From a virus: a DNA stretch of 64,000 nt. Within the stretch, counting starts at the first letter, position 1. Each line of letters opens with the position of its first letter. Location: the IMG/VR virus record IMGVR_UViG_3300025012_000053, positions 1 through 64,000 of that record; one strand, 5' to 3'. The notes beneath the pieces are model-generated. The model was not told where the DNA came from. It saw only the letters and a program-made list of their open reading frames with translations, and did no database searches. Positions 1-32,500 of this stretch are shown piece after piece. The position numbers were made by a program, and so were the translations under genes.

Positions 1-3000
1 TACAAGTCTGCCATCATTAGTACGATAATACCTGAGCTTACCTGAAGGACCAGCAGAAACACTCTGATTAAACTTACGTACTCCATATTCACTCTGAAGA
101 ACGAGTTTCGTACCTGAGAATTCTATATCTACAAGATTACGTTCAAGATATGAAGCAAGTTGTATAATAACTTTATCGATGATAGCAGGAAAGTCTATAC
201 TTATATCCGTACTTAAGATATCATAAGCTCTTTCATTGCCTGCACCATCCAAAAGATTAAGGATATTCCCTTTGATGCTTTTCTTATTAAAGAATTTACT
301 GAAGAACCTGTCTGATCCTATCCTTTCCAGTTCAGCCATGTGATAGTAGATCCTGTCAGCCATATCCTGGTTGTTTAAAAGCACTCTGGCAAGATATATA
401 AGCTGTGATGGTTGACGTACCTTACTCTCGATCTTGGCTTTTGGATCCAACTGTATACGATAATGATCATTCTCTACTTCAAATGTCATTTGTTTCACCA
501 ACTCCGGATCCTGAACATATCCTTCAGTAAGCATATCAAAGAATGATGCTGTCACTTCCGGCATACCAACCTTTACGCCAGACCCAAATACTGCTTCCAG
601 GGCTCCTGATTTACGTATATTATCGCGTAGGATACCAAGAGAAGGGAATTCTTTAATGAGCTCATCACTTAAAACAATAGAACTATATTTAATTGCTCTT
701 ACAGTACCATCTTTACCTATTGAATAAACTACAGGCTTTAATATCTTACCAAGTGAAAACTCTGATCCAAAACCTATGTTCTTAAGTTGTTCAAATCGTT
801 CCGGAAGCATGAATCCCTGGCCATCACCAATAGCAAAGTTATCCTTGAATGCCTTCATCAACATTGGAAGCTTCGGTAGTTCATCTTTTGTAAGAATATT
901 CTCAAGAAGAGTCTGTATATCTCCTGTCTCTTTATATTGATCACCTATGATCAGGAACTTAACTCTTTCAGGAAGCCCGAATACTTTATTAACAATAGGT
1001 TTCATACCAGGTGCTGTAGCAAGAGAAAACCTCCTCATCACATCTTCTTCATTCAAAAACTGATTATTATCACCAAGGATCATCTGATTAAGAAAATATG
1101 AATTAATATAGTTATTTGCTACATAAGAATATACAAATGGAAATATAAGATCCCTGTCAATAAGATATTCACCGGTTGTATTATTGACGGAACGAAGTTT
1201 CTTTTTACCTCTCAGGTTTGAATTGATAAATCCATCCATCGAAACATCTTCTCCAAGAATTCTTTTAACATTCTTCATAGAGAACATATCGGAATCAAAT
1301 GGGACCTTATTTTCTATAATGGTATCTGCTGCCTTTTCTGCTTCACGTTTTAATAAATCCATGACCTTATCGGAATACTTTGTAATCTCTTCTTCCGATA
1401 GTGGTTTTTTAACTATGTCGCGTTTACCGATTACCTCCTGTAATAATCTGAGATTAATAAACTTACTTTTATTATTTTCTTTTATACCTGAAAGCTGTGG
1501 AGAACTGTTTATCTGTCTTATTGCATCTTCTATTGAAGTTCGGACTTGTGCAATAGTAAGTACATTGATCTTTGCCCCGAGAACATTATTCCTTTCATTG
1601 GGATATAGTGCCTGGAAGTATTTCTCTCTTCCTTCACTTGAATATCTTATCCTGTCAATGAATCCTGCAACAAAAGTCCTTACTATAAAATCCTGTGTAC
1701 TCTCATCTTTTTGTTTTATCCCAAATAGATTTTCATTGAATCCTATATTCCGTATGCCATCATGATCAAATACTGAGAAGATCTTATTCTTCCCGGTCAA
1801 GAATATATTATGCTTAAAATAATCAGACCTGAGATGATTTGGAATAGACAGAGATATGCTCCCGCCTTTTAATTCTCTTGTATTAATAAGACTAAATAAT
1901 ACATTATGAGCAAATGAAGATGGCGACCACATGTATTTACGTTTCTTTGCAACATCCCTGACATTAGTTGCCCTTAGATTAGCATTACTATACATCATAA
2001 GCCTGGATAATCCCCTTAATAGATTACCGCTCTCTGCGAGTATGTCTTCTGTAGTATAGTAAAGATCCGCTGCTTCTTCTCCTGATTCGATAGCATCCTG
2101 AGTAATTGTCTCTTTTGCTTTTCCTATAAGTACAGAAATCCTTGATATGAATCCTTCAAGATCATTATATATAGCAGTAACATCTGATTCTACATTCTGA
2201 ATGTTATTAGCAAGCAGTCCCATTCCCATCTTCTTAAGGAATGATCTTATAAGTTCAAGTCGATTATCTTTAAATTCATTTTTATTAGGAGCCCACCAAC
2301 CTTTAACGAATTTATCAACAGAATCCTTATCAGGTAATGAATCAACGATATTCTCTTTTAACTGACTTTCTATTCCAAGATGAGGACCAAAATATGAACC
2401 GGGAATATAAGATATAGCATATGTACCTGCTCCTTCCCATTTCTTTTCTACAAGAAATAGATTTTTTTGCTTCTGGTTATTAAAGAGATTGATGATACTC
2501 CGATAAGTATTTACATTCATATATTTCTCAAAATGTCCCTTTATATCATCAATATTAAGATCATATGTTGATGATAAACGAATAATATACTCCCGGGTAC
2601 TTTCATTATCTGCCCTTGCAATAGTATTAGAGCCTATGATAGATGCTCCTGCAGGCCCGGCAACATCACTTACATCTTTATTCTCTGAGAATGCAAACAG
2701 GTTCTCATTAATAAAACGCATCGTATTTGGAAGATTGGTTCCATCTTTACCATAATTGATTCTACGCGCATCATTATTAAGATTCTTTATATACTCGACT
2801 ATTGCATATGATCGTGGTTCTTTACCATTATTTCTCCATTGTTCTTCAACCTGTTTTATAAACTCACTATTTTCTGGCTGTAAACCTTCAAAGAGTTGCA
2901 ATGTCCTGATATATGCTTCTCTCCACCCCATATACTTACCGGTAGCAAGTTTAATATTGGAAAGGAAATCTTTTACAACTGCTGACATCTTTGCTTCCTG

Positions 3001-6000
3001 GTTAAAATCATCAGACTCCATGATATGTTCCTTCATGTTAACCCTGTCAACAATCTTGTCATAATATTCTTTTATTTCCTCTGTAGATATGGTTGTATCA
3101 ACGGTTATCTCTCCTGCAGAACTGAAGTCCCAATTTTGATATATATCATTGACAAGAAGATTGTAGTTGTCAATTACTGTCTTGTAATATCCGGCTTCTT
3201 TTCCATTCTCTGCTATCTCATTAAGAGAAGTTTTTGCTTTCTTAAGTCTCTTCCCTTCTTTTAATAATATTATATAATCCTGTGTTATTACATCTTTTGC
3301 AATATCAAACATCTCTCTTCTGGTTACAGGGAAACCATCAAATCCAAGTGCATGAATCCTTAAAAACTCATCCTGTATTATTGCCCTGGCATTACGATAT
3401 ACATCAATGGCATGTGAAAAACTACCAGTATCCTGTCCGTAAAGAGAAATAATATTACGCATAGACCGGGTAATACCAATGCCAGTATATTTACTCTTTG
3501 TGAAATAACCTCCTTCAATAGTCTCAAAGAACCTATCAAGACTATTCATGTTCATATTAATAAACCCAAGATTCTTAGCGAGCCAGTTGAAGAATCTCTT
3601 TAGTATGTTATCAACAGTTGTAAGTTTCTTTTGTTGATAATCCTGAAACTTCTCGGCAAGTAATTCCTCTATCTCATCCACTGATCTGTCAGCATACTCT
3701 TTAAATTGATTCCTGAAGGCATTAACGATCATATTACGTTCTCTCTGGCTGAGATGTTCATTGAAGATCTTATGGAACGTCTCATGCCTTATTATCTTCT
3801 TAAATGTCATGCCACCGCGTTCCATTGCCCAGATAACTTCATCCCGGTATAAACCATAAAGACTTCTTCCATCTTCCATCCCGGATAAAGTCATCTCATC
3901 AACAAAATACAATACTTCTTTTCCCTCTTTTGATATGTTAGGGATGAATTTCTCAAGTAGTTTACGAGCTTCTTCCTGAGTTATTGCTTCACCAGGATCC
4001 TGTCCCACGTTAAGCATATTCCGGGTCCTTCTTCTATTTACTATTTTATCCTGAACGCTATTAACAGCTTTGTCTATTTTAGCTCCTATAGTCTTTGGTT
4101 CATCTTTAGCTGTCTCTGGTTTCTTATCCAGATCTATTTGTATTTGTGTACGGTTTATTGATGATAGTTTACTTGCCAGAAGATCCTCGAGCTGAACTAT
4201 GTTCCTATTAATATCTTTCCCAAGTTCATTGATCCCCTGTGGTCCATTCATCATAAGGGGTAGGTTCAAAGATGTGTGATTACCATCCTGATCGAATGTT
4301 AGTATCTGATGTAATTGTTCTGAGGTAACAAGCGCTACCTCATGTTCCTTCCTGAGTTCATCAAACTCCTGTTTACTTATTCCTTCAACCAATGTTTGCT
4401 GATTGTCTTTTATTTGTAACAAAAGTGTTTCAAGCCTGGTTATATTTTCTTCATCGGTAAAGCTTTTTGTCTCATCAAGAAATTCGGTTACATCTCTGGC
4501 ACCGCGACCTATTGATATCTGTTCTCTTGCCATCTCCTTATAGATTTTAAGAAGATGTTCATAATAATTGGTTGATGAATTATGTTCACTCAAGAGATGT
4601 TTTGCCTGTGTTATATATTTAACCGATGGCTTGCCATCTGTATATGTTGTTATCCTTTTCTTAATGACCCAGGGATTATCACTATTAGCCTTAGCGAGTA
4701 TATTAAGAGCTATCTGTGCTGTTCCCTTACCTGCAATAAGTTTATTCTGGTCAGTTACATATTCAACAATATCTGATTTGTTATCCTTACGAAGAATATA
4801 CCCGCCTTGTTTCTTTGGATGCTTTTTAAACTCATATGTATAATCAGGATTAGTAAGTTCCGTTGGACCAAGATACTGTTCCATCTCTTCCTGGCTCTTA
4901 ACTTCTACCCTCTGTTCTCCTGGTCCATAGAATCCCGGGATGATAGTAGCTGATAATTCAGCAATCTTATTGAACTGTTCTTCTGTTACATTTGGAAATC
5001 CTCTTTCTTCAAACTCATCCTGGTAATCTTTATATTTATAGTTACCATCTTTAATACTCTGTATCTCTCCATCAGCATTGACCTCAAAATTCTTATAGAA
5101 CCTTTTAAGAAATTCATTTACTCCTGGCTCAGAAAGTCTTCCTATTCCCAAAGCCTCAAAAGTATCTATAGCAGAAGTAAAATCAGATAACTTCTGCATA
5201 AGATTATCACTATTACGTATCTTCCTTGCAGTAAGTCTTATGAACTGTTCTTTACGTGTGTGCTCTTCTCCATCCTTAGTTGTTTTACGCTGAATAATAA
5301 GATATGGGACACCCGGGAATAACTTCTTATCTTTTATACTAAACATCTCGATAGTGAAAGCAAGAGTCTCTTTTAATGGTGAAGAAAAGATGCTCTCCGC
5401 TTTTGCAAGTAACCTCTTAAGAAATCCAGTTCCCTGATCCTGAATTGTATCTGAATAAGTATAGGATAACTGTTCTGCTTTTCTTATTGTTCCTTCTGCA
5501 AGTATTGTAGGACCAGTTTCAAGTTTAAGAGTTCCCTCTATTCCTGCAGATAAACTATTTGATACATTGCCGGCAGCTTCACTCCTGGATAACAGATCAA
5601 GACCAAAATCATCTTCAAGAAGCTCAGCCTGACCCATGATGCCAATCTGTTCCCACTTTCCATTACCTGTTGGACCTGGAAGAGGAGAACCATCTATATT
5701 GATCTGCTGTGCCACTATCCATATCTGGTAATCCTTAATATCGGGATTGTAAACCCTTATATATTTTACCTTGGATCCACTTCTTATATATGGTGTACTG
5801 TCTGATTTATTATCCCTGCTCTTGATAGGATAATATGAAGGAAACCTGACAGATCTTGTATTACCATCAGAAAGATCAAGAAGAAACTCACCTCCGGTAG
5901 ATGGTATATTATCAATACTCATCTCTTCATCTTCTGCGGGAGAATCTTTAATATCAGAGAATGGCACCTGTTCTTCAGTTTCTCCTGTTGCTTTTAATGC

Positions 6001-9000
6001 CTGCGCAGGTGCAACCCCGGCGCCTTTTATTGTCATACCATGAATTCTTGCTTCAAACTCAAGTCTGTTTGCAAATGCATTACGTATATCAATATCCCTT
6101 TGTTTATTATCTTCTGGAACAATATCATGTACACGGAATCTCCATGCCCCAGGATCCTTTTCATAACTCTTGATGAAGATATAATCCTTTGACCGGGATA
6201 AGGCTGTGTACATACCTTCATTAAACTTACGCTGCGCTGCCTTGAGATATGTATCAAAATCTTTTGGATCCATATCGACATATACTTCATCATACTGAAG
6301 ACCTGCTACAGCATCATACTGCATTATATCAACACCAAGACCTTCATAGAACTTAGCATCCTGCTCATTACTGACTACTATAACCCTGCTCCTTTGATTT
6401 GCTTTCTGATGTATTGCTATCTGTCTTTTAAGATCTGCCTTGCTGCCTGATATGTGAACTCCATTAGCAGGATTGCCAAGATCGGCATCAGCAACACCAA
6501 GGATTGTATTTACCTTTGATGGCACACCAAGGAACCTGTTCTGGATACTTATTATTGCTGAATTGCCGGACCGGAATACTGCAGTAAGAGGATTAAGATG
6601 ACGTACATTGATCATATCACCATAGAAATTATTGATAGCAGGGAAATCCACGTTCCTGTTTGATGACTGTGAAGGATCTCCAAATACATATACTCTTAAT
6701 GGTTTCTTTCTTGTCTCATTTGCCTTAGTTACATTTTCTGCTATCATATCAAGCTGTGAAGCATCAAGCCTGGCTACTTCATCAATAAGAAGAATATTGA
6801 ATTTATCATCCTTTAGCAGCTGATAATCAAATGTATCTACAAGTCCGGTATTGGTTACTCCTTCAAGACTTTTCTTTAATACACCAAGAGCATTCTCATG
6901 AGTGCTCAGACCAATTACTGATTCTGGTTTAAAGCCCATCATCCTGGATAACCACTTCGCAAATATTGTTGTCTTACCTGATCCAGCCAATCCCTTCAGA
7001 TAATACCATCCTTTATACTCCTGCTTAGACTGTGTTTTTGTTAAAGAGATATTAAGTTCACGTATAGCTTCACGAAGAGCTATATCCTGTTGATTACTCG
7101 GGATCTTATCTTCAGTATTCAATAGAGAATTCTCTACTTCTATTATCTCTTCAATCTTGATTTTACTTTCAAGCATCCTGGTTAACTTGTCAAGGGCAAG
7201 AAGAGATATATGTGTCTCAAGAAGCTCGAGTAGTTTCTTCTTATCTACATTATAAACAACAGGAGCGCCTTCTTTCAGTGCTGTATGTAGTTTGATTGCA
7301 TCCTTATCAATAAAGAAGTCATCAATGGCATTTGCCTTGGTTATATTAAGATTAGGATCAAACTTATTAACAATGATCTCAAGTATGTCATTGAATGCAC
7401 TGTCAGGATACTTCTTATATTGCTCAAGAGTAGTCAGTGAATATAACTTAACCATATCCATTACCTGCTGAGCAAATGTCTCTATCCTGCTATTAATTAT
7501 CTCGGTAGTTTTCTTATTTAATTCATTTTTTGCTTCATTGTTTTTCTTAACCAGTTCGATGATTTTCTCAACGAACGTACTGTCATAGGTATATTCTATA
7601 CCATCCTGCTGAGCTTTTGATGCTTCGTTAAGAATTCCTTCAAGGATATCCTTGCCAATAGTCTTCTCGATAATACTGTAGATATCTTTATTAAGATCCG
7701 ATACCTGATGTGTTTTCTTATCACGGTTAGTTATAAGACCTATGGCATTAAATAGCGAAGCGGAATAATTGATCCTGCTTTTCATATCAATCACGCTCAT
7801 CTTTTCCCGGGCCTCAGCAGCTTTAGGTCTTAATGTATTAAGATCCTCTATCGCCCTGTCGATCTTCTCAAGAAACCCCTTAAATTCATTCGTGGTGAGC
7901 AATCTCCTTCTGCCAGGGGAACTATATATCTGTTTTCTTCTATCAAGTTCTGTCAAAGCATTGTCAATAGCTGAAACATCATTATACTTATCATTACCCC
8001 TGGCTGCATGTATTATATCCTTAGCTGTATCTATAGGCTGATCAGCAAACTCTCTTTGAAACTTACGATATGTTTTCTTCTGATCCTTCGCGAATGTTTT
8101 ATCTTCAAGTTCCGGGATATTAGATAATATATCCTGAAATGACTGTGATGAACGTTCATGATCCAGACGAAGAGCCTCTCTTGTATCTATCTTCTTCTGT
8201 AATTTTATTGCTTCGTTATTAAGCTTCTCAAAATCTGGTCCTGGTTGTTTCGGACCAAAAGGTATTCCATCCTCATCAACAGGTTGGACCATGCTACCTT
8301 CTCTTGCTGCTTCGGCTTGTCTCTCCCACTCTTCTGCCTGGTTCTTTGTCCTGTTAAGATATGATCCTCTCTGGTTTATAAGTGACTGTACCTTATCAAG
8401 ATCTTCTTTGGAATAATAATCACCATTTGATATATTGTTAACAACGGTGTTAATAACATCAGATATAGGCTTCCTGCCTTTTACTGCTTCTTCTACATCC
8501 TTTGCTGTCTGAGCTTTCCTACGATAGTTCTTTCCTATATCATGGAAATAGTTATACATGGCGCCAAACTCATTAGACATATCCGGCGCAAGGCCATCGG
8601 CTACATCCCTGGCAAACCTGGTAGAAAAAGGATTCTTGGTACCATTGATATAAAAATACTCATCCTGTTCATACTGTGCTCTCTCAATATCTTTCTGAGT
8701 AACTTTTGAATCCGGTTGTTGCTGATCTTTTTTAAGTTGCGTAACCTTGTCCCTGGCATTGGCTTTCATGAACTGCTCATTAAGATAATCCGTGTATAAC
8801 TTCTCACGGGTTTTCTTTTCAAGGATCTTCCCGGTCAGTCTCTCACTATCTTTTATAAGCTTTCGAATATCATCTTTCTGCTCATCTGAAATCTGGTCAT
8901 TAGAAAGATAATCCTCATACATATTTCTCTTTACCTGTTCTCCAAAGAGTGTTTTTAAAGCTACTATATTAAACTCTTCTCTTGACTTCTCATTCTTAAA

Positions 9001-10767
9001 GTCTTCAGCACTCATGATCTGGTTACGTGCATTTTCAAATGCTTCACGCAAAGGTTTAATATCTGCCTTTGTAAACTTATTCTGATATCCTTTCTCTGCA
9101 AGTTCCTTTGGTATTGCCAGATCACGTTCCATCAGGAGATCATCTACTTCCTCAAGGTTAGTCATGCCCGGAGTAGTAGCATAGTTAAAATATAACCTTG
9201 CCAGGGCATCTTTATTTATTGTCTCAAGGTGAATATTATCAGCATTGACTGTTGCTGCCATACCTTCATCAAAAAGAAGTTTATTATAAAGAGAATACAT
9301 GAACATCCTCTCTGCCTTATCAATATCTATCTCAGTTTCATTATTTTCATTATAGTATGATTCTGTCTCTATATCCCTGACAGTACCATCTTCCTGTTGT
9401 TGTTTTATAGTTGATTTGAAAGTCTTGTAAGGAGCTGCAATATGTTGTGAATACCACTTATCATGCTTATTCATCTCTCCCTTAAGGAAAGTATAAATAT
9501 CTTCTTCCTCTTGTATCTGTTTTCTTTCCCCTACTGCTGAAGCCCTGCCTCCAACACCACCAAAGAGACTACCAACCAAAGATCCAAGAACCATATTTTT
9601 TTGACCCTCTACAGTACTAAAATTATCAATCCATTCATTTGCTATCCCAAGAGTATAGTCATCAATATTCTGTCCGAATGATTCTTTCCTCGTACTATAT
9701 GTCTGAAGGGCATGTTGCATACCTTCTTCCCATAGACCTTCTGATACAAGTCCTGTTCCTATGCCTTTCAATGATTCTCCCCATAGCGATATATCTTTTG
9801 AAGCAATAGTTCCTGCGCGTACTCCTGTCCTCATCTCTGACGCTACCTGTCCGATCTTGCCGAACATAAACTTACTCTGAATGTAGTTAGGAACTATCAG
9901 TACTCCAAGGTTCCCTTTAAATACATTAGCTGCTCCGGTAGACACAACTCCATTTATCTTTGTCTGTTGTTCAGTAGTAAGCATCTCGAATGGCTTATCA
10001 TAATCGCGCATTGACATCTTCTGCTTCTCACTGTCCTTAAAGTCTTTTGATTCAAACCCGGCTTCTCCTATTGAGTTCAGAAGTGTTGATCCATATACCT
10101 GAACTTTTTGGCCCATTATCTTTGCAGCCTCTTTTGTTGCGCCTGCTCCTGCAAGAGCCTTTCCAAGACCAAGAGCTTTTGATGCAGCACCAATACCGGC
10201 TCCGGTAAGATATGCAGATCCAAGGAAAGCAAATGAATCAAAAAGATCATCAAACCAGAATGCAGGATCCTTCATCTGTTGTAACAGGTTTCCGTTTCTT
10301 GCACTATAGGATTTATTAATCGGAAGGGATTCCCTGAGACCAGAATCCATCTTACTCATTGTATTTACAAAAGCATTATCCCATATAACATTAGGATCTG
10401 CTGTTTCCGGATCATCAAGATAATCCATACCATAAGAAACAGCTCCGGCTATATGACCTACATTCTGAGCAAACTTAGGAATAAGACTTGTACCACGCGA
10501 TACAAGGCCACTACCGAATTTATTAAAGAATGGTTGAACTTCAGCTTTCATTGACTCTTCATCCCATACAGGAACACCCTGTCCGATAAGATACTTTGCT
10601 TTACCGACAGATGTATCCATATTAAAATAAGAACCAGGTCTTTGTTCTCTTTGTTTGAATAGCTTTATTGGTAATGGTTTTTCAACAGGAAGTCCTGTCC
10701 CTTGTTCTATTATTGGACTTTCAATATCCTGGGCATCAGGGTCTACCCAGTTTCTATTAGATATCAT
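1..10767 (-). CDS. Giant multi-domain virion-type protein: SF1 helicase, HExxH peptidase-like and possible RNA polymerase regions (3' end cut by window)
   Basis: An open frame of 3589 codons runs from the ATG at 10767 through the left edge, so the C-terminus is missing. The ATG lies 3 nt after the stop of the upstream cargo gene. The N-terminal ~350 residues include small-residue-rich hydrophobic stretches, followed by long charged helical regions. An SF1 helicase domain follows: Walker A GLAGSGKTT at ~1259-1267, Walker B LLIDE with D1329/E1330, and motif-VI-like YTALSRSK at 1520-1527. HETFH at 2328-2332 fits a zincin active site. GDGQGF at 3314-3319, followed by a Lys/Gly-rich segment, resembles a motif I recall from crAss-type giant proteins interpreted as two-barrel RNA polymerases; the expected DxDxD catalytic loop would lie beyond the edge. 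Position after the cargo genes suggests packaging and injection. The helicase call is firm, the peptidase likely and the polymerase tentative. Confidence 0.8.
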   Translation of the reverse strand, partial: MISNRNWVDPDAQDIESPIIEQGTGLPVEKPLPIKLFKQREQRPGSYFNMDTSVGKAKYLIGQGVPVWDEESMKAEVQPFFNKFGSGLVSRGTSLIPKFAQNVGHIAGAVSYGMDYLDDPETADPNVIWDNAFVNTMSKMDSGLRESLPINKSYSARNGNLLQQMKDPAFWFDDLFDSFAFLGSAYLTGAGIGAASKALGLGKALAGAGATKEAAKIMGQKVQVYGSTLLNSIGEAGFESKDFKDSEKQKMSMRDYDKPFEMLTTEQQTKINGVVSTGAANVFKGNLGVLIVPNYIQSKFMFGKIGQVASEMRTGVRAGTIASKDISLWGESLKGIGTGLVSEGLWEEGMQHALQTYSTRKESFGQNIDDYTLGIANEWIDNFSTVEGQKNMVLGSLVGSLFGGVGGRASAVGERKQIQEEEDIYTFLKGEMNKHDKWYSQHIAAPYKTFKSTIKQQQEDGTVRDIETESYYNENNETEIDIDKAERMFMYSLYNKLLFDEGMAATVNADNIHLETINKDALARLYFNYATTPGMTNLEEVDDLLMERDLAIPKELAEKGYQNKFTKADIKPLREAFENARNQIMSAEDFKNEKSREEFNIVALKTLFGEQVKRNMYEDYLSNDQISDEQKDDIRKLIKDSERLTGKILEKKTREKLYTDYLNEQFMKANARDKVTQLKKDQQQPDSKVTQKDIERAQYEQDEYFYINGTKNPFSTRFARDVADGLAPDMSNEFGAMYNYFHDIGKNYRRKAQTAKDVEEAVKGRKPISDVINTVVNNISNGDYYSKEDLDKVQSLINQRGSYLNRTKNQAEEWERQAEAAREGSMVQPVDEDGIPFGPKQPGPDFEKLNNEAIKLQKKIDTREALRLDHERSSQSFQDILSNIPELEDKTFAKDQKKTYRKFQREFADQPIDTAKDIIHAARGNDKYNDVSAIDNALTELDRRKQIYSSPGRRRLLTTNEFKGFLEKIDRAIEDLNTLRPKAAEAREKMSVIDMKSRINYSASLFNAIGLITNRDKKTHQVSDLNKDIYSIIEKTIGKDILEGILNEASKAQQDGIEYTYDSTFVEKIIELVKKNNEAKNELNKKTTEIINSRIETFAQQVMDMVKLYSLTTLEQYKKYPDSAFNDILEIIVNKFDPNLNITKANAIDDFFIDKDAIKLHTALKEGAPVVYNVDKKKLLELLETHISLLALDKLTRMLESKIKIEEIIEVENSLLNTEDKIPSNQQDIALREAIRELNISLTKTQSKQEYKGWYYLKGLAGSGKTTIFAKWLSRMMGFKPESVIGLSTHENALGVLKKSLEGVTNTGLVDTFDYQLLKDDKFNILLIDEVARLDASQLDMIAENVTKANETRKKPLRVYVFGDPSQSSNRNVDFPAINNFYGDMINVRHLNPLTAVFRSGNSAIISIQNRFLGVPSKVNTILGVADADLGNPANGVHISGSKADLKRQIAIHQKANQRSRVIVVSNEQDAKFYEGLGVDIMQYDAVAGLQYDEVYVDMDPKDFDTYLKAAQRKFNEGMYTALSRSKDYIFIKSYEKDPGAWRFRVHDIVPEDNKQRDIDIRNAFANRLEFEARIHGMTIKGAGVAPAQALKATGETEEQVPFSDIKDSPAEDEEMSIDNIPSTGGEFLLDLSDGNTRSVRFPSYYPIKSRDNKSDSTPYIRSGSKVKYIRVYNPDIKDYQIWIVAQQINIDGSPLPGPTGNGKWEQIGIMGQAELLEDDFGLDLLSRSEAAGNVSNSLSAGIEGTLKLETGPTILAEGTIRKAEQLSYTYSDTIQDQGTGFLKRLLAKAESIFSSPLKETLAFTIEMFSIKDKKLFPGVPYLIIQRKTTKDGEEHTRKEQFIRLTARKIRNSDNLMQKLSDFTSAIDTFEALGIGRLSEPGVNEFLKRFYKNFEVNADGEIQSIKDGNYKYKDYQDEFEERGFPNVTEEQFNKIAELSATIIPGFYGPGEQRVEVKSQEEMEQYLGPTELTNPDYTYEFKKHPKKQGGYILRKDNKSDIVEYVTDQNKLIAGKGTAQIALNILAKANSDNPWVIKKRITTYTDGKPSVKYITQAKHLLSEHNSSTNYYEHLLKIYKEMAREQISIGRGARDVTEFLDETKSFTDEENITRLETLLLQIKDNQQTLVEGISKQEFDELRKEHEVALVTSEQLHQILTFDQDGNHTSLNLPLMMNGPQGINELGKDINRNIVQLEDLLASKLSSINRTQIQIDLDKKPETAKDEPKTIGAKIDKAVNSVQDKIVNRRRTRNMLNVGQDPGEAITQEEARKLLEKFIPNISKEGKEVLYFVDEMTLSGMEDGRSLYGLYRDEVIWAMERGGMTFKKIIRHETFHKIFNEHLSQRERNMIVNAFRNQFKEYADRSVDEIEELLAEKFQDYQQKKLTTVDNILKRFFNWLAKNLGFINMNMNSLDRFFETIEGGYFTKSKYTGIGITRSMRNIISLYGQDTGSFSHAIDVYRNARAIIQDEFLRIHALGFDGFPVTRREMFDIAKDVITQDYIILLKEGKRLKKAKTSLNEIAENGKEAGYYKTVIDNYNLLVNDIYQNWDFSSAGEITVDTTISTEEIKEYYDKIVDRVNMKEHIMESDDFNQEAKMSAVVKDFLSNIKLATGKYMGWREAYIRTLQLFEGLQPENSEFIKQVEEQWRNNGKEPRSYAIVEYIKNLNNDARRINYGKDGTNLPNTMRFINENLFAFSENKDVSDVAGPAGASIIGSNTIARADNESTREYIIRLSSTYDLNIDDIKGHFEKYMNVNTYRSIINLFNNQKQKNLFLVEKKWEGAGTYAISYIPGSYFGPHLGIESQLKENIVDSLPDKDSVDKFVKGWWAPNKNEFKDNRLELIRSFLKKMGMGLLANNIQNVESDVTAIYNDLEGFISRISVLIGKAKETITQDAIESGEEAADLYYTTEDILAESGNLLRGLSRLMMYSNANLRATNVRDVAKKRKYMWSPSSFAHNVLFSLINTRELKGGSISLSIPNHLRSDYFKHNIFLTGKNKIFSVFDHDGIRNIGFNENLFGIKQKDESTQDFIVRTFVAGFIDRIRYSSEGREKYFQALYPNERNNVLGAKINVLTIAQVRTSIEDAIRQINSSPQLSGIKENNKSKFINLRLLQEVIGKRDIVKKPLSEEEITKYSDKVMDLLKREAEKAADTIIENKVPFDSDMFSMKNVKRILGEDVSMDGFINSNLRGKKKLRSVNNTTGEYLIDRDLIFPFVYSYVANNYINSYFLNQMILGDNNQFLNEEDVMRRFSLATAPGMKPIVNKVFGLPERVKFLIIGDQYKETGDIQTLLENILTKDELPKLPMLMKAFKDNFAIGDGQGFMLPERFEQLKNIGFGSEFSLGKILKPVVYSIGKDGTVRAIKYSSIVLSDELIKEFPSLGILRDNIRKSGALEAVFGSGVKVGMPEVTASFFDMLTEGYVQDPELVKQMTFEVENDHYRIQLDPKAKIESKVRQPSQLIYLARVLLNNQDMADRIYYHMAELERIGSDRFFSKFFNKKSIKGNILNLLDGAGNERAYDILSTDISIDFPAIIDKVIIQLASYLERNLVDIEFSGTKLVLQSEYGVRKFNQSVSAGPSGKLRYYRTNDGRLV

Positions 10768-10770
10768 ATC

Positions 10771-13176
10771 TTATCTGTTATTAATATAAAATAGAACTGC
10801 ATTTCTATGATTCTCTCTGTGAGCAGCTGCAGTTGGCTTTTTTATTGTCCCTCTCTTTTCATTAACATCAATCCAGATATTATAAGCTTGCAGTTCTGCC
10901 ATTACAGGATCGATAGCTCTTGATGTAGGATCAACTTGTGCAGGATAAACAATATAACCGTTAGGATTCTTTTTTTCATCATAGAGATTCGCGTAAGAAG
11001 CATCTTTGATATTATTCGGATCTGCCTGGTATACTCTGAAGATTACTTCTGAGTCATCTGTCGTTCCAAGAAAATCTTCTGCAACATTCATCCATACATC
11101 GGTAGGTCTGCTTCCTTTTTTATTATCAATATTATTGAACCTGTCAATGGTTTCAAAGATAATTCCATCCTGAGTATTTAATGGACCCCTGACTGCGAAG
11201 AAATTACTTTCTCCTTTTGCTTGTGGAAGATTGAACGTATTTATATTATATGAAAGTCTGTTTTTCTCAACCTCCCTCTTATCTCCTTCTATAAGATAAA
11301 GACCATCGCTTGTACTTATCTGGTACATGCCGGGACCATATTGACTTGTCTCGTCTTTTAACTTTCCAGTAACTTTAAATGTTTTGCCCTTTTTAAACAA
11401 TGAATTCTTTTCATCAGCATCCATCTCTGGTTTATCCGGATTATTTAAATCAACAACCCTTTGTCCGGAAAATTGTGCAGAAGCTTCAGTATTAAGTTTT
11501 ATCTCTCCATTTGCATCTGGAACAATACCTGTAAATGCAGTTGTCCATTCCTCCATCATGTTTTTAGTATAATTAGGATCACCTGGCATAGACCATACTT
11601 CAATATCTGGACGAACGCCTACTTCATTAATCTGGGAATCATATGCTTTATTGATTCTTTGAAGTGTATATTTTTGTTGTGGGGTTAAATTGTTTATATC
11701 ATCAATCTTAACACTCTGATATAACTCACCTGGCAGGTTTCTTGTAGCATTATAAGCATATAATAATTTATTTTTCTCAACATCTGTTTGTTGAATCTTT
11801 TCATTTACTTTCTGATCTTTAAGTTCTTCGTCTATCCAGGTCATTACCTCATCTTTCTTACTCTTAAGATCTTTCGCTTCTTTGCTATTCTTATCTGGCA
11901 GTGATGCAATCTTAGAATCAAAATAACTCTCTATGTAAGGTCTTGTTCCCCAGGGATCATCAAAGATCATTTTTTGCATAGTAGGCTTCCATCTATTTTC
12001 AGGACTCTTAAAGCCAAGAGAATAATCAGTTAATACCTTTCCTTCTTCGTCTCTTAAATTTTCTCCTGAAAACATAAGATCTGGATTTTCTGTAACCTTT
12101 TTATAATATTTTTGCCCTAACTCACTTTCATAAAACTTATCAACCTTACCGATACGATTACTCTTCCAGAATCCTATGTTTGATAATGACTTTAATTCTC
12201 CACCACCAGGAGTATTTTGTAATGGAACTATTTTTTGCATAGGTGTTGAGAATATCTTATTAGATTCTTTTTCGGGTTCCTTTTTCGTTCCTGATGCTCT
12301 TCCGGAACTTTGACCTATAGGTGTAGTCTTTACATCTCTTTCATAGATCACATTCTCTTTTTGATATGGTTTGGTATATGGCATTATATCTTCAGGGGTG
12401 AGCTCAGAGACATGTTTTCCAGCAAGCTTTGCAAAATATCTTGCCTCAGGACCCTGTGATGATATGATATCTGCAACGGCTTTTTCTGTTGCCGGTCTCA
12501 TCATCTCCTCGTTCCTTGATTGTATTGTCTCCTGCTGAGTATAGTTTACATTAACAGGATTACCTTCAGAATCAACTACCGGTTTTCCGGTATTCTTATC
12601 TATGAATGGCATCTGATAACCTTCAAGATCCTTAGTGTCTACTTGTGCAGGAATATTTTTATATATATCTGTAAAATACCCTCGAAGATCAAGAAGAGGA
12701 TCATATGGGCTATACTGATCTCCTGACTTATATTGTCTATATTGTCCTGTATTAGGATCTACATTAGGATTAATCATGCCGGGTTTAGACTGAAGGATCA
12801 TTTTCTTGTGAAGCTCACTATCCTGGTAGTCTTTCATTACAAGTTGAACATCAGGATCTCCATGAAAGTCTGCATTAATCCTTGTCAGTTCTCTCATTGC
12901 CGGTACAGAATATGTCGAATCACCATGTTTCTGCTGCCATGATTGTATTCTTTGCTTGTATCTATCTTTTACCTCTTGAGCAAGACCCTCGGAACTCAAT
13001 CCACCAACTACAGATCTGGATAATGCATCAATTTCACCAGCTGCTGCATCTGTCTTTTCAGCACGTTGTATCTTATCCTGTTCGAATCCTATTATTGATT
13101 CCCATGGAGTCTTATCCTCTACAAACTGAGAAGTATATTCAGGAAGACTTGGATTATAAAACCGATTTATACCCAT
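10771..13176 (-). CDS. Probable virion cargo protein (801 aa)
   Basis: A largely hydrophilic, helix-rich protein without a recognised catalytic motif. Its N-terminus (MGINRFYNPSLPEYTSQF, then a long charged helical region) resembles a class of large virion proteins in crAss-like and other Bacteroidetes phages. It sits between the other cargo-type gene, 11 nt upstream, and the giant helicase-containing gene, 3 nt downstream, which is the position of ejected cargo proteins in crAss-like phages. The middle, at residues ~300-320, is a low-complexity Lys/Glu/Ser linker that probably separates two halves. Function is inferred from position and N-terminal resemblance only. Confidence 0.6.
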   Translation of the reverse strand: MGINRFYNPSLPEYTSQFVEDKTPWESIIGFEQDKIQRAEKTDAAAGEIDALSRSVVGGLSSEGLAQEVKDRYKQRIQSWQQKHGDSTYSVPAMRELTRINADFHGDPDVQLVMKDYQDSELHKKMILQSKPGMINPNVDPNTGQYRQYKSGDQYSPYDPLLDLRGYFTDIYKNIPAQVDTKDLEGYQMPFIDKNTGKPVVDSEGNPVNVNYTQQETIQSRNEEMMRPATEKAVADIISSQGPEARYFAKLAGKHVSELTPEDIMPYTKPYQKENVIYERDVKTTPIGQSSGRASGTKKEPEKESNKIFSTPMQKIVPLQNTPGGGELKSLSNIGFWKSNRIGKVDKFYESELGQKYYKKVTENPDLMFSGENLRDEEGKVLTDYSLGFKSPENRWKPTMQKMIFDDPWGTRPYIESYFDSKIASLPDKNSKEAKDLKSKKDEVMTWIDEELKDQKVNEKIQQTDVEKNKLLYAYNATRNLPGELYQSVKIDDINNLTPQQKYTLQRINKAYDSQINEVGVRPDIEVWSMPGDPNYTKNMMEEWTTAFTGIVPDANGEIKLNTEASAQFSGQRVVDLNNPDKPEMDADEKNSLFKKGKTFKVTGKLKDETSQYGPGMYQISTSDGLYLIEGDKREVEKNRLSYNINTFNLPQAKGESNFFAVRGPLNTQDGIIFETIDRFNNIDNKKGSRPTDVWMNVAEDFLGTTDDSEVIFRVYQADPNNIKDASYANLYDEKKNPNGYIVYPAQVDPTSRAIDPVMAELQAYNIWIDVNEKRGTIKKPTAAAHRENHRNAVLFYINNR

Positions 13177-13187
13177 TAGAGTAAATA

Positions 13188-15110
13188 TTAATATTTCCTG
13201 TATCTGCGTTTCCCTAATAATGCTGTAGTTTTTCTTCTGAGATTACCTCCAAACCTGCCAGTAAAACTATTTCTCGGATTAAGATCTTCTTCATTCTCAT
13301 CAAGATTGAATAGATCAAATTTTGAGTCTTCAGGAGTAACAAATGAACTTTTGTCTTTATTTCCCCAATATGCATCAATCATTTGTTTTTTTAGACCTAT
13401 CATCTGATTCTGATAATCTTCCTGTGCAGTCATCATCTTGTCATCCCTTGATTTCTGCCCTATCTGAGTAAATAGTTGATTCGTATTAGCATCTATTGCA
13501 GTCTTTCTTGCTCCCCTGTTAGCCGCGTTAGCTTCTGCCTCCTGCATTCCTACCTGGGTGTTAAACATACTTAACCTGGATCTGTTTTGTGAATCCATCA
13601 TTGAGGCCCTGTTCTGTGTTTCTGCATTCTGTGCCTGTATCTGACCTGTATAACTACCTATTGCTTCGGCTTCTGATGCTGCAATGTTAGACAGGTTATT
13701 CATGTATCCTCTTGGGTTTAATCTGCGTAATCGTTCCCGGGAAGATCCGAATGATCTCTTTATGTTCTGTATTCCTGCTTCAGAACTTATAGGAGCCACT
13801 TGTGTCGGTGTAAATGATGCCTGTTGATAGTCTACCTTCTCAGGTCTGCGTAACAGGTTTGTTGCCATTCCTATTCCACTACCAATGATAGGTGCGTTAC
13901 CAGGATCATCAAGAAATGATTTAAGGTTTAATCCATCTTTACCATATCCTATTGCTCCAAAATATCTTCGTGTAATATCATAGATCTGGCTTAATTCATC
14001 ACTCATTTCTTCAAATGGAAGTTGTGATACTTTTCTTGTTTCATCATTCCACTGATCACCGGTACGTTTTTCGAAACGCTTATCGCGCTTCTTTACAACA
14101 TCAGCAACACTTTTGCCAATATCTACCCTTTTAAATGGTACATTACCTCCGTATCTTTTCATAATAGCGGGTGTTACTTTAATCTTATCTGAGTGAACGA
14201 TATCTCCTGTCCGGGATTCTCCATCCTCTACCTGTACTCCAATAGGAAGGTTAATACCTCCCTGGTTATGCTGTTCTCCAATATAATCTGTTCTTTTTGA
14301 TAGTTTTTTAAGGTTCATTCCACCAGCAGCAACTACATTATCATACTGCTGAACTCCTCTTGATACTGCAGGTTTATATACTTCTGATATCTCATTCTCA
14401 TCACTGGCTGGTTGACCAATAGATCCAAGAGCCCCTGCAGCACCTGAAGTCATAAGACTTGCTCCTATGGGCGCTCCGATACCTGTTGCTGTCATGGCTG
14501 CTCCTACACCTATCTTGGCAAGGTTCCCTGCATTATCCTTGAGCCATCCACCTACTGAATACTGAGGTACATCTGTATCTGCCATAAAAGGATTATAGTT
14601 GTCAGGATCAAAACCTTGTTTCTTAAGAAGTTTTGCTGTCTTCTTTTTTTCTCCAAGATAGTAACCGGAAAAATTCTTATTAATGTTTGCAGCTTGTGGT
14701 ATACTTTCCATGTTCCAGAGGCGATATCCTTCAGGTCCTCCCATTGTCCAGTCGGTACCTTTATCCTTACTCATCATGCTTGCTCTTTGAGATGCCGGCA
14801 TCCTGAGCCATACCGATTCAGGAATACTATCTCTGCCAGATCCCATCAATCCTTTTTTTGCAAGAACAGGATATATTTCTTTAGCTGTATGTGATCTCCA
14901 TAGGTTATTATTAACTACATCTTTTGGCAGATCTCCAAGTGGACCGCCCAATTCTAATTTTTTAAAATGTCTTTTAGCCATCCTGGCAAAATTAGCCATC
15001 TGTCTTACATGAGGATCTTTAGATCTCAATGCTTCTGCAGTTGTTTTACCGGTTCTCTTTTTATACGCTGTAAAACGACCTTTATGTGATGCCTTGATTT
15101 TTATTGCCAT
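13188..15110 (-). CDS. Probable virion cargo protein with IKIKASHKG N-terminus (640 aa)
   Basis: The N-terminus, MAIKIKASHKGRFTAYKKRT followed by DPHVRQMANFARMAKRH, matches a start I recall from crAss-like and other Bacteroidetes podovirus virion proteins. Residues ~200-245 are Gly/Ala-rich and hydrophobic, with the character of a membrane-inserting helix. The C-terminal third is Gln/Asn/Ala-rich and helical, and the last ~20 residues are strongly basic (RRKTTALLGKRRYRKY). This composition suits an internal protein that interacts with DNA or crosses membranes during ejection. It lies directly upstream of the 801-aa cargo-type gene and downstream of the muzzle gene, the crAss-like order muzzle-cargo-cargo. 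No enzymatic motif is evident. Confidence 0.65.
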   Translation of the reverse strand: MAIKIKASHKGRFTAYKKRTGKTTAEALRSKDPHVRQMANFARMAKRHFKKLELGGPLGDLPKDVVNNNLWRSHTAKEIYPVLAKKGLMGSGRDSIPESVWLRMPASQRASMMSKDKGTDWTMGGPEGYRLWNMESIPQAANINKNFSGYYLGEKKKTAKLLKKQGFDPDNYNPFMADTDVPQYSVGGWLKDNAGNLAKIGVGAAMTATGIGAPIGASLMTSGAAGALGSIGQPASDENEISEVYKPAVSRGVQQYDNVVAAGGMNLKKLSKRTDYIGEQHNQGGINLPIGVQVEDGESRTGDIVHSDKIKVTPAIMKRYGGNVPFKRVDIGKSVADVVKKRDKRFEKRTGDQWNDETRKVSQLPFEEMSDELSQIYDITRRYFGAIGYGKDGLNLKSFLDDPGNAPIIGSGIGMATNLLRRPEKVDYQQASFTPTQVAPISSEAGIQNIKRSFGSSRERLRRLNPRGYMNNLSNIAASEAEAIGSYTGQIQAQNAETQNRASMMDSQNRSRLSMFNTQVGMQEAEANAANRGARKTAIDANTNQLFTQIGQKSRDDKMMTAQEDYQNQMIGLKKQMIDAYWGNKDKSSFVTPEDSKFDLFNLDENEEDLNPRNSFTGRFGGNLRRKTTALLGKRRYRKY

Positions 15111-15408: not shown

Positions 15409-18400
15409 TTATAATGTTTTACATAGTCGAATATTAAAGCAGTCAACAATATCCCTTGCTTCATATGTTATTGCAGCATATGAATGATAGAATGTTATTG
15501 TCATATCAGAATCAGAGCACCAGTATGATCCTTTTAATCCGAGCTCAGAGAATGTATTATATCCGACAAAAACACTTCCTCCGGGTAATGCTGTATATCC
15601 ACTTGAATTTGTTGCTCCGGTATTAGGACTTGTCCAATGAGCAGTACCAACTTCTTTCATTGCTCCTCCGGCTAATGACGATCCACCAAGAGCAGCAACA
15701 AGAGCCATCCAGTCTGCTATAGTAGGAACTCTCCATCCTGTCTCCAGGGCACCACTACGTGTAAGATAAGCTATGTTATTCGCGCTTTGAGCTGCATAAC
15801 CATTATAGTAACGTCCATATGTAGATAACTGATCTGTAATAGGAGTAAAGTCAGCTATATAAGGAATGATAGCATTCTGAAGTGTATTATAACTAAGAGC
15901 TGATGCTATTATTGATCCTCCATTGACAAACTTGGTTCCTTTAAAGTTTTGTATTATCCATCTTCTGCCGGCAACATCAATAGTATCATACTCATATCCT
16001 GCATTATCTGTAAGCGGTCCTGTTATTGGTGGTGTTGCTGTAGTAAATGTGAGATTTTCTCCATAGCCAACAAGTGCTACACTATTAACGGCATATGCTC
16101 TTATATAGTGTGTTGTCCCATTGGGAAGATTATCAATAAGTTTATAGAATGATCCTATACCACTACCTGAAGAATAGTTTTGTACCGTTGGATCTGGAGA
16201 TGTACCTACGCAGAATCCACGTCCTGTAATTGTAAGTCCACTGCCTCCTGCATATATTACATTACCATTAGCTCCTGCTTCAGTATATCCTATACCTGTT
16301 ATTGAATCAGTTGTAACTGTAGGTGCTACATTCTCATTCATTACTATAGTTATAGGAGCGCCATATCCATCACCCTTGCTATTTGTGGCATAGGCTGCTG
16401 CATAATATGTTTCTCCAGGGGTAAGACTACTTCGGGTTACACTATATGATCCTGTTCCTGAATCACCATCATCATATTTAGGATTATTATATGCGACAGG
16501 ATCCGTACCAAAGAAGAATCCTTTTTCTGTAATTGCCACTCCTCCATCAGATGTTGCATTACCATTAAGGACAACACTTACTGTAGTAAGACCGGAATAT
16601 GCATTCGTTACAACAGTGGGCACATAATAAGCTATTGTTGTAAAGCTTATCTCATTACTATAAGTTATATCTACAGAGTTTTGCGCGTATGCCCTAACAT
16701 AGTACGTGATACCATCACTACCACTATTCATTATATGTGAAAATTCTGTAATACAATCATTATAACTATCAGCTACAGTAGGAGAGCCAGATGTGTTCCA
16801 ACAGAAACCGAATCTTGTTATGGCAGCACCACCTGTACTTAATAATATAGCACTTAACGTAGCACCAATTGCGGTTATTGATGTTGCATTATATTGACTT
16901 AATACAGGAGCCGTCTGGGTTTTTGAACTGAATATCTTCTCATCTCCATATGATGTTCCTGCACCATTAGTTGCATAAGCACGAACATAATATAATGTTC
17001 CAGGACTAAGAGAAGTAATAGAACTTACAAAAGTGCCTATTCCAGAACCATCGATAGTCTTTGAATCACTTGTTGTAGGTCCTGAACTTGTCTTCCAACA
17101 AACACCCCTGGCAGTAACAGGATCGCCACCATCACTTGTGATCGTTCCACCACATGTAGCCGTAGTATAATCTATAGATGTTACATCAGCAGTTGACACG
17201 TTAGGGGGAGATACATTTATTGTCGTGAATGACTTTCTCACTCCATATGCTGTACCTACACTATTCATTGCATAGGCCATAACATGATATCCCCTTCCTG
17301 ATAATAATCCTGTAAGAGCTATATCAAAAGATCCAAGACCCGTTCCAGTGTCTGCTACTTTTACTCCATCCGCAACAGGATCAGAATAGTCATCTATACA
17401 GTAATATATTCCTCGTTCATATACTGTAGATCCATTCCCGGAAAGAACATTTCCTCCTGCAGTAGCTGTTGATGATCCAAAGACTGTTATCTCATTTGTC
17501 TCAACAGAAGCTGTAGTATATACTGTAGTTGTCCTGGCCCAGTTGGTTCCATATGATACACCTTCACTATTGACTGCATAGGCTCTCATGTAATATGTAG
17601 TACCCTGAGAAAGCCCGGTAATATCAACACTGAATGTTCCTTCTCCTGTACCTGAATCAATATGATCTCCTGCTATCGTAGGATTAGTAGATGTTCCATA
17701 AGCAATACCTCTTTGTGTTACTCCCCCAAGAGCATTGCCATCATGAGTAACATTCCCTCCTGCTCTTATAGACACATGACTCAATACAGTAGGTTCCGTT
17801 GTCAATACCGTAGCATAATCAAGATCGAGAGTAGAAAATCCTCTTGATGTTGCACTATAACCTGTACCTTTCTTATTTATCGCATAAGCCCTCACATAAT
17901 ACTGAGTGTTGTCAGTAAGACCTTCCATATCTGCTGAAAACGAATCGGATCCAGTTCCAGCTGTAACAATATCATCAGCTGTTGTAGGTGGATCAACTAA
18001 ACTGTAACACAATCCTTTCTCAGTGATTTCCGCACCACCATCATTTGTTATTACACCACCACTTCTTGCAGATGATATTCCTATCTGATCAACAGCATTT
18101 GTAGTAAGAGTAGGAACGAATAGATTTGTTGTATTAAAACTTTTCTCATCACTATAAACGGGTGTTGCACTAAGACTATTTATCGCGAATGCTCTCACGT
18201 AATATTGAGTTGTATCTGTTAACCCGGTAATTGTATATTCAACAACACCTTCAACTCCTGTAAGTATTGTATAGTTATCATCGAGTATAGTAGGATTAGG
18301 AGATGTAGACCAACACAATCCGCATGTCAATGGACTGTCTCCTCCGTCTTCAACCAGGGTCCATCCTGTAGTGGCTTCCTCTTCTCCTATATTACTTATA

Positions 18401-21400
18401 GCGGTAAGAAGTATTACCGGGGGGATTGTAGTTTTATGTATCTTATTGGATCCGTAACCGGTGCCTACGCTATTTGTAGCATATGCTCTGACATAATAAG
18501 TATTTGCAGGAAGAAGTCCTGTTACCGTGCTTGCATAATCAGCAGACCCGGTACCATCAGAAGTATGACTATTAACATCAATAGTGGGATCGGCAGTAGG
18601 ACCATAACAAACTCCTTTGGCTATTATAGGAATTCCTCCATTAGAGATTATATCCCCACCACTTACACATCCCGTTGATGTAGGAGTAGTTATATCTTCA
18701 GTTTCCAATGATGGAGCATTTATATTACTAACGAGTTCAGGAAGATCTGCCAGGTATACTTCAGATGATATCTCAAAATTGGTAAATGTTGCTACAATGT
18801 TTGGCATTGGATTGACAATCACCTCGACAAAACTATCAAAGTACTTACCAAAATATTGTCCCGGATAACCATAATCTTCTTTATAAAGATGCTTACTATA
18901 TGCTGAGAACAATTTATTATCGTATATCATATAAAAATATGCCAGGGTATCAGCAAAACCGGTGAATGCATCAATAACCTCATTGAAGATAAGAGCTATA
19001 CCGGCATCAGCATGATTCTTAATGATGAACCAGATCTCATTATACATGGGATTAAAGACCATGAAGAACCCTGTATTATTAAGATTTAGACTCATGATAT
19101 TATCTGAATTGGAATATACATCGGATATACCATTGAGATATGAGTTTATACCTCTTATGGTAGATATATTCTCAAGGTTATTAAGGAACCTGTTTATCGT
19201 TCTTCGCTTATGATCATACCAGTAAATGCCATTGATACTTTCAGCAATAGAAAATTTTGTACTTAATCCAATTTTAGTAGATATATAATCATATCTCTGC
19301 AGGATCTCGCCCTGTCCGAGTGTTGTACTCTTACCTTCTGTATCAGATATTACAGATCTATCCATGACACTTAATGAACCAACAGCATTATCCTGAAAGA
19401 ATAACAGGTAGTTTTTCCATGCAGCGAGTTTATTAACTGGTCCAAAGGTTTTATTAACAATTATAGATTCATTTGAAAGCCATTGAGTCCAGGGATCTAT
19501 TGTCTCTCTTCCCTCTTTCATATTGGAAGCCATGACAAGACAGTCGTTATAATATTCCGGATTATAGTCAAATGGCGCCGGAAGAAACTTCTTAGCATCA
19601 GCAGTACGTTTATATACTGTATTCTCGAGATAAAGATCTGTCCAGTTATTAAGATATGTTATTCCATCGGCATTGCTTATTGTCTCTGTGAACTCTGCAT
19701 TTCCTTTCTCTCTTATCCAGTATGCTGTAGGAACATTATCAAAGATCCTGTGCCAGCAGTCATCGAGTCTGTATGCAAGGTTTACACTCGTCTCACATGG
19801 AAACATTACCACTGATGCAAATGTATCAACAGAAGCAATGCCTGATGCCTTTTGGTACCATTCATTATAGTAACTTGTAAGATGATCAGTGTAGGCAATG
19901 TAAGTATCTCCCTGGTTAAAATAAGCCGTGGCATTACCAGTACTGACAGCAACAATATCTCCAGCTGCTATATATTCATTCTTTGTCCGATCCTCATAGG
20001 AATGACCACCATATTGAGAACCATAAAGATTAGTCCTGTAATTGGCAATCATATATTTATCAGCAGCTATTATTCCCGATACATCAAGAGCAGTTCCTAA
20101 CTTAATAAGAAGTGATGTTCCAAGATTACCAAGCTTACGGACTCCTGACGGCGCTGTCCATCCGGATATAGGAATAAAATTAGGGATATCCCCAAATGAA
20201 GTACTTATTGCTTCTACATCTGGCGTGACTGCTGCATTCTGCATCCTTGATTCCTGTACTGCATACCACTTACCAAGAGCAAGGGAAACAGGAGTATGAT
20301 ACTTTAGTGCTTCATGTTGTGTGCCATATGCATTATTTACTCCGGTACAAGTACCAATGAGTTGAAGAAAATCATTCGAACTCTGCGTAAAGTTTTTATA
20401 GAATGATATCTCCGGTGAGAACATCACGAGATGTTTCTTTGGTATGGCAGCAAGGCCACTATATGCACTTGTACTTGAATATGATGGCTTGCCTACTATC
20501 CACTCAGAACCATTATAAGGATATATCCAGCTTAAGTTTCCCTGTAGTTTAACAGTCTTATTGTCATCAGTGCGCTTTACATATACTATCTGGACATATT
20601 TTACTTCAGTAGGAAGATTTGTAAGGGTGAATACAATCTCTATGGGCCATGAATTTGTTGCTCCAAGACTTGTATAAGAAGATCCTGTCTTACCGCTTAC
20701 ATCAGTTCCGTGCTCGGGAGTTCGTATATCTCCTATCCACTTAACAGGACTCGGACGACCCTTGTCATCAAAACCAACACAACCGACCCTGTATATCTCT
20801 CCTCTGGTAAGTGTTCTTATAGACTGGTTGAATACCGGGCTTTCCGGACCATTATAATAATTAGGCACTGCAACAGGCACTACACCAAAGGTTTTATTAT
20901 TACCAAGATTGTCGATAGGCTTTTCATTAACAGACTGGAATATATAACTTACATTAGGACCCTCTCCGCCTCTTGTTGTTCCATCCTGGTGAAATGCAAA
21001 GTTTGTTCCCTGGCTATCAAATGTAATATCATTGCTTTTACATATAGCATCTATGTCAAAAGGAAGATCATCTATTGAATCAACAGAATCTATATTTACT
21101 CCTGATGAATTGTATTTCAACCACGTGTTTCCATAAGTAAGACTATTCATCCAGTAACCACCATCTGTTTCATATAGATAACAGGAACGAGTACTTGCAT
21201 ATCTATATGCTCTGGCATCATAATCAAAATCAAACTCGTTCTGTTTTATTCCGGTAGCAAAAAGAATATTGAACTTGGCAGCAATAGATTTACATCTGAA
21301 TGGATTGTTTATCATCACAAACTCAGAATACAGGTATTCTCCTGAATTATAAAGTCCATCATCAGTGATATATACTGTTGAATCTACCGGTTTAACTTCT

Positions 21401-32206: not shown

Positions 32207-32500
32207 TTAAGTATTATATTTTTCCAGTTGTCTGTAAGAATCATCAATGATATCCTGAATGTCCTGTACTGTAAGAACATTATAATATTCTGTTATTGAT
32301 ACATCAGATATTACTTCATACCTATAAAGAATCTCGATATACTTTGAGATCATTATATTACGTTCATTAAGTTCTTTCAGGAATATAAAGTTACCTGTAT
32401 GATATGCAAAGCTTTTAGAAAGATCCAATCCAAGCCTTGAATGTAATAGTTGTATCGTTGCGATATCACTATTTAATTGTGTTTGACTGAATGCTTGCAT
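32207..32500 (-). CDS. Small helical hypothetical protein (97 aa)
   Basis: An all-helical protein (TQLNSDIATIQLLHSRLG ... VQDIQDIIDDSYRQLEKY) without membrane segments. Its start lies inside the last 32 nt of the large glycosyltransferase gene, so the two are translationally coupled. It may assist that enzyme or be a small virion protein; nothing in the sequence decides. Confidence 0.5.
   Translation of the reverse strand: MQAFSQTQLNSDIATIQLLHSRLGLDLSKSFAYHTGNFIFLKELNERNIMISKYIEILYRYEVISDVSITEYYNVLTVQDIQDIIDDSYRQLEKYNT

Follow-up and report, generated by a model that had tools for sequence, protein, structure and literature searches.

A crAss-like virion RNA polymerase gene of an environmental phage, predicted to encode the whole polymerase block as one chain of about 6,100 residues

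What protein is encoded by a reading frame so long that the record that holds it ends before the frame does? The window considered here is a stretch of 64,000 nucleotides, bases 1-64000 of the 94,414-bp virus record IMGVR_UViG_3300025012_000053. On its minus strand, from 10767 to 1, runs a frame of 3589 codons which starts with ATG, has no stop codon and is open at the first base of the record. An earlier note, made from the letters alone, had described one unbroken frame with an SF1 helicase, an HETFH site and a GDGQGF motif, and all of these are found at the residues it gave. Since the record itself ends at base 1 of the window, the true gene must be longer than 3589 codons. From alignment with its closest relative the full length is estimated at about 6110 amino acids, and 1..10767 would then encode the first three-fifths of a phage protein of roughly 6,100 residues. 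The reading argued for here, to which a probability of about 0.83 is assigned, is that the RNA polymerase block which an environmental crAss-like phage packages in its virion is here the product of one gene, a single chain with the following order and the working proposed further on: a part like g067 of phage phi14:2 at the N-terminus, an SF1 helicase, a zincin-like metallopeptidase domain (zincin 1), a two-barrel RNA polymerase, a second such domain (zincin 2), a PD-(D/E)XK-like motif and a C-terminal part like phi14:2 g065.

Consider first the extent of the frame. A second minus-strand frame, of 1426 amino acids, is open at the last base of the record, its opposite end, and continues to a stop codon; HEIVH lies near the start of this frame. 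The sibling contig IMGVR_UViG_3300025010_000084, with 99.95% identity to the record, lengthens this frame by 584 bases (194 amino acids) that are missing from the record, and there the frame is still open. Because the sibling continues the frame, the record ends are taken as an assembly break within one gene or one block. On contig IMGVR_UViG_3300034059_000003 (G002), which was reached via its large terminase subunit (TerL), both pieces lie within one frame of 6393 amino acids, at 45-59% identity. The last residue of the window corresponds to residue 3859 of G002 and the tail piece starts at residue 4955, from which follows that about 1095 residues are missing between them, a stretch that by alignment to the relative would include the catalytic loop of the polymerase. 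As the sibling gives 194 of these ~1095 residues, we infer about 900 residues of the chain, and the uninterrupted frame across them. Searches for a contig that bridges the gap returned the sibling only. A direct joining of the record ends, which have the same frame phase, was rejected, since the sibling and the relatives put ~1095 residues between them.

A search with the polymerase alignment gave five more contigs, four of them viral and one assigned to a bacterial genome bin. The order N-terminal part, SF1 helicase, zincin 1, RNA polymerase, zincin 2 is the same in all seven relatives, each of which carries the helicase, zincin 1, the DxQ motif of the polymerase, the sequence GSDFDVD and zincin 2. 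Because they are present in seven of seven, the helicase, the HExxH site and the DxQ motif are not there by chance. In five of the relatives, on separate contigs, the block is a single frame, of 6393 (G002), 6246 (L070), 6161 (L069), 6057 (L068) and 5981 (L072) amino acids, where the last four lengths are counted from a stop or the locus edge to a stop. In G003 the frame has 5575 amino acids and the remainder, near the C-terminal end, is frameshifted. In L071 the block is split into 4752 and 1564 amino acids between the polymerase and zincin 2, with zincin 2 in the second gene, and this is the same boundary as that between g066 and g065 in phi14:2. The contig L072 (DAOWEB010000162.1, 99.4 kb), which is binned as a Spirochaetaceae genome, carries both the phage block and TerL, and is probably a mis-binned phage.

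Could several genes have been fused, whether in assembly or through the loss of stop codons? A fusion by assembly had been named in the earlier note as what would overturn its reading, and such an artefact could draw on the ending of the record within the gene and on the frameshift in G003. Against it stand the unbroken frames of 5981-6393 amino acids in independent assemblies, on contigs which over the polymerase part are 28-56% identical to the window. Judged by these frames the giant frame is not an assembly fusion, and the artefact is highly improbable.

The polymerase assignment concerns residues 2900-3589 (1..2070, minus strand), where the first part of an RNA polymerase is predicted. 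A model of these residues, built from the window sequence and an alignment of the seven relatives, has one significant Foldseek match, 6VR4 (E 4.2e-7, probability 1.00; the next match has E 1.5), at an overall pLDDT of 56 and a global TM-score to 6VR4 of 0.22. This structure is the virion RNA polymerase of phi14:2, g066. Profile-profile comparison (hhalign) of the polymerase part with known crass polymerases gives 6e-19, compared with 0.6-0.9 for controls with shuffled columns. A polymerase profile also matches phi14:2 g066, at 3.7e-19, cr118 gp14 and crAss001 gp50. Sequence searches of solved structures, with a single protein or the polymerase profile as query, gave no match. Within the invariant columns, DGQGFMLPER aligns to DAQAWITPKR of g066, and the downstream lysine motifs LKP, KYS and KVG are common to both. 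GDGQGF (residues 3314-3319, bases 811-828) was considered as a catalytic site and rejected, since its counterpart in g066 lies about 400 residues ahead of the catalytic loop; by its alignment it is a conserved polymerase motif and not the loop. No DxDxD motif occurs in the 3589 residues inside the window. In G002 the DFDVD of GSDFDVD starts at residue 3939, about 80 residues beyond the window edge and thus well within the ~300 residues over which the earlier note had proposed to look for a catalytic loop. In all seven relatives GSDFDVD aligns to GSDFDID of phi14:2. What had been called a possible polymerase region is in this way borne out by fold match and profile. The kinship with crAss-like virion polymerases that had been suggested also holds, but the description as a more complex version of their theme gives way: the comparisons support a gene product that is itself a crAss-like virion RNA polymerase of the phi14:2 g066 family, in fused form.

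The helicase core lies at residues 1258-1532 (6172..6996, minus strand), with the Walker A motif GLAGSGKT at residue 1259 (6970-6993). Its assignment, earlier placed at ~1259-1527 from the Walker A and B motifs and motif VI, is confirmed by Pfam Viral_helicase1 (1258-1532, E 2e-11, exceeding the curated cut-off) and AAA_30 (4e-8). Walker A, Walker B (LIDE) and GDPxQ are kept in the relatives. In G002 (locus L065) an intein with an HNH endonuclease interrupts the helicase at residues ~1257-1543, within Walker A (GLAG, then C...VHN, then TGKT; Pfam Intein_splicing 1e-9).

Zincin 1 is assigned to residues 2230-2480 (3328..4080, minus strand), with HETFH at residues 2328-2332 (3772-3786), where the earlier note had seen a peptidase-like site. 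The HExxH and a Glu pair about 40 residues later are invariant in 8 sequences (H99, E100, H103, E138 and E139 of the modelled slice), and the domain is homologous to the HEAFH domain of Suoliviridae (hhalign 3e-15). The model has helices at 94-109 and 134-151 of the slice and the order of strands and helices given in PMC5512222, with a core pLDDT of 75-87. The structural comparison with zincins that had been proposed as a check did not bear fruit: Foldseek gave no significant solved structure, with PPEP-2 and MATCAP at E 1.7, and Pfam gave no zincin match for the HETFH slice of the window sequence. Matches of the zincin profile to TAL effectors were rejected as summed repeats, with single-stretch E-values >500. 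Zincin 2 and the PD-(D/E)XK-like motif are in the part of the chain beyond the window. Zincin 2 is homologous to the HEIMH domain of phi14:2 g065 (hhalign 6e-14). The nuclease-like motif, GTTD...IIDWKT in the tail piece, is echoed in L068, L072 and cr4, with a weak profile (Pfam PDDEXK_1, E 0.1). At the other end of the chain, residues 71-406 (9550..10557, minus strand) form a domain homologous to phi14:2 g067 (blastp 28% over 364 amino acids, E 3e-26 in a small set; tblastn against all phage records, 2e-10).

How does this chain relate to polymerase blocks already known? In phi14:2 (Steigviridae), g067, g066 and g065 hold, as in the window's clade, an N-terminal part, a polymerase with GSDFDxD and DxQxxxxPxR, and then zincin 2 (HEIMH). 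Unlike in that clade they are three genes, of 1797+2180+1421 = 5398 amino acids, and profile searches of the phi14:2 block found neither helicase nor zincin 1. In Suoliviridae (cr50_1 gp059/gp060, cr118_1 gp14/gp15, cr55_1, cr4_1) zincin 1 (HEAFH) lies upstream of the polymerase in one chain of 4491-4946 amino acids, as in the window, and in several members zincin 2 is in the next gene, to which cr4 adds a nuclease motif. The Suoliviridae block has two genes, of about 4500-4950 and 1386-2007 amino acids, where the window's clade has one chain. An SF1-type helicase related to that of the window is placed after the polymerase in cr118 and cr50 (profile E 2e-12 and 3e-6), in contrast to its position ahead of zincin 1 in the window's clade. 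Read with the standard code, the genes of cr4 contain many in-frame stops. In p-crAssphage-type phages (Intestiviridae) the annotation reads 'RNAP associated protein fused to zincin protease' and 'RNAP catalytic subunit fused to unknown RNAP subunit'; in the records examined the block is divided elsewhere, ahead of the polymerase, into two genes of 1962 and ~4090 amino acids, and no helicase was found. In Flavobacterium phage FpV4 the block has, by position, 4287 and ~1600 amino acids; an HExxH lies close to the end of the first of them, and the DFDxD pattern found no match.

Much of this is published or annotated: giant crAss polymerase genes, which reach about 6000 amino acids (PMC10136315), zincin fusions, nuclease domains in transcription proteins (PMC7886860) and polyvalent proteins. 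Such polymerases are usually split over two or three proteins; elsewhere among crassviruses the block is divided between two or three genes, and in the window's clade it is completely fused. What is new is the complete single chain together with a helicase ahead of zincin 1; in the text of the part of the literature covered, no description of such a chain was found. The block acts as a single unit, about 5,400-6,400 residues long, within which the gene boundaries move from one lineage to another.

Sequence or fold shows which domains there are and in what order, the single frame of the relatives and the crassvirus setting, and on these a scheme for the working of the chain can be built. By extension from homologues found in virions, namely g065, g066 and g067 of phi14:2 (mass spectrometry, record annotation) and gp47, gp49 and gp50 of crAss001 (PMC10172136), and from g066, which is packaged in virions and makes early RNA (PMC10136315), the chain would be packaged, ejected and used to transcribe early genes. 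Most likely it is a late product that is kept in the capsid and leaves through the tail in a partly unfolded state. In the cell the polymerase would transcribe the early genes, convergent with the giant gene at its 3' end, and the helicase would probably, at a guess, open or pull the incoming DNA for it. Cleavage of the chain into its working parts, either inside the capsid or once in the cell, would probably fall to the zincins, whose targets are guessed.

The last step leads to a reading in which the single chain is a polyprotein, the storage form of what zincin cleavage during virion maturation or after entry turns into roughly the separate proteins of phi14:2. It overlaps with the reading preferred here, of which it would be the processing step, and in itself it is plausible at somewhat less than even odds. 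In phi14:2 the same modules are separate genes, and L071, Suoliviridae and p-crAssphage-type phages have them split; the polymerase is flanked by two HExxH domains in every single-chain member; and autoprocessing by zincins has been proposed to recur among the giant proteins that phages inject, N4-type virion polymerases included (PMC5512222). The zincins cannot, however, serve only to undo the fusion, because they are also present in Suoliviridae and phi14:2, whose genes are already partly or fully separate. Suppose instead that the full-length chain works uncleaved, so that its helicase draws in or opens the entering DNA and hands it to the polymerase of the same chain, with entry and early transcription mechanically coupled. 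A coupling of DNA entry to transcription has been proposed for P23-45 and crAss-like fusions (PMC10770324); for the present chain we consider it doubtful.

A different role is suggested by the polyvalent proteins, defined by several unrelated enzymatic domains in one chain, a property that the helicase, zincin and polymerase parts give to the present chain. Zincins are their commonest domains, and fusions of the N4 virion polymerase with a metallopeptidase (vRNAP-MPTase) are counted among them (PMC5512222). The N4 protein is a giant injected chain with polymerase and zincin, as the present one would be, but its polymerase is T7-like and that of the window two-barrel. From the same definition, helicase, peptidases and nuclease could be directed at host targets, with the polymerase as one weapon among several. 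This is unlikely: across crassvirus families the zincins hold fixed positions around the polymerase, as fits a common step of infection more than an arms race with its changes, and the helicase alone has shifted. A further likeness to the preferred reading, a virion-packaged polymerase block, is offered by gp96 of Thermus phage P23-45, a virion chain of 5002 amino acids with a DFDGD polymerase, a metallopeptidase and membrane domains; it differs in being the tail tape measure protein and in having its polymerase at the N-terminus, and the available part of that report (PMC10770324) does not mention a helicase. For models of protein ejection, the passage of a predicted chain of ~690 kDa through a narrow tail is a hard test. 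The helicase, kept in every member of the clade and placed elsewhere in Suoliviridae, makes a need of crassvirus virion polymerases for opening or pulling DNA on entry testable.

That the phage is a crassvirus follows from its muzzle protein (15409..22284, Pfam crAss_MUZ 5e-157), major capsid protein (45542..47026, PHROG 4e-93), portal protein (48482..50935, PHROG 7e-102) and TerL (50947..53073, PHROG 1e-121), all on the minus strand. In a TerL tree the window's clade stands among the crassvirus families, beside Steigviridae and Suoliviridae and within none of those sampled; TerL identity to Suoliviridae is 42-45%. Two genes on the same strand, of 801 (10771..13176) and 640 (13188..15110) amino acids, adjoin the giant gene. 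The earlier note had called them cargo-type, which is supported by their position, that of crassvirus cargo proteins; against known cargo genes, profile comparison gave nothing significant. The muzzle protein has an extension of many fn3-like repeats with a Fib_succ_major domain at the C-terminus, which may bind the host. In-frame insertions of ~370 codons, probably inteins, occur in TerL of G002 (C1:74770-78000) and G003 (C1:23695-26934), and in the window a UDP-glucose/GDP-mannose dehydrogenase (55349-57868) is broken by a probable intein with a LAGLIDADG endonuclease. Radical SAM, B12-binding radical SAM and glycosyltransferase/TPR genes adjoin the structural genes (58491-61799 and 32469-34841), and a collagen-like protein with GPTGPTG repeats, probably a fibre, is encoded at 35877-37727.
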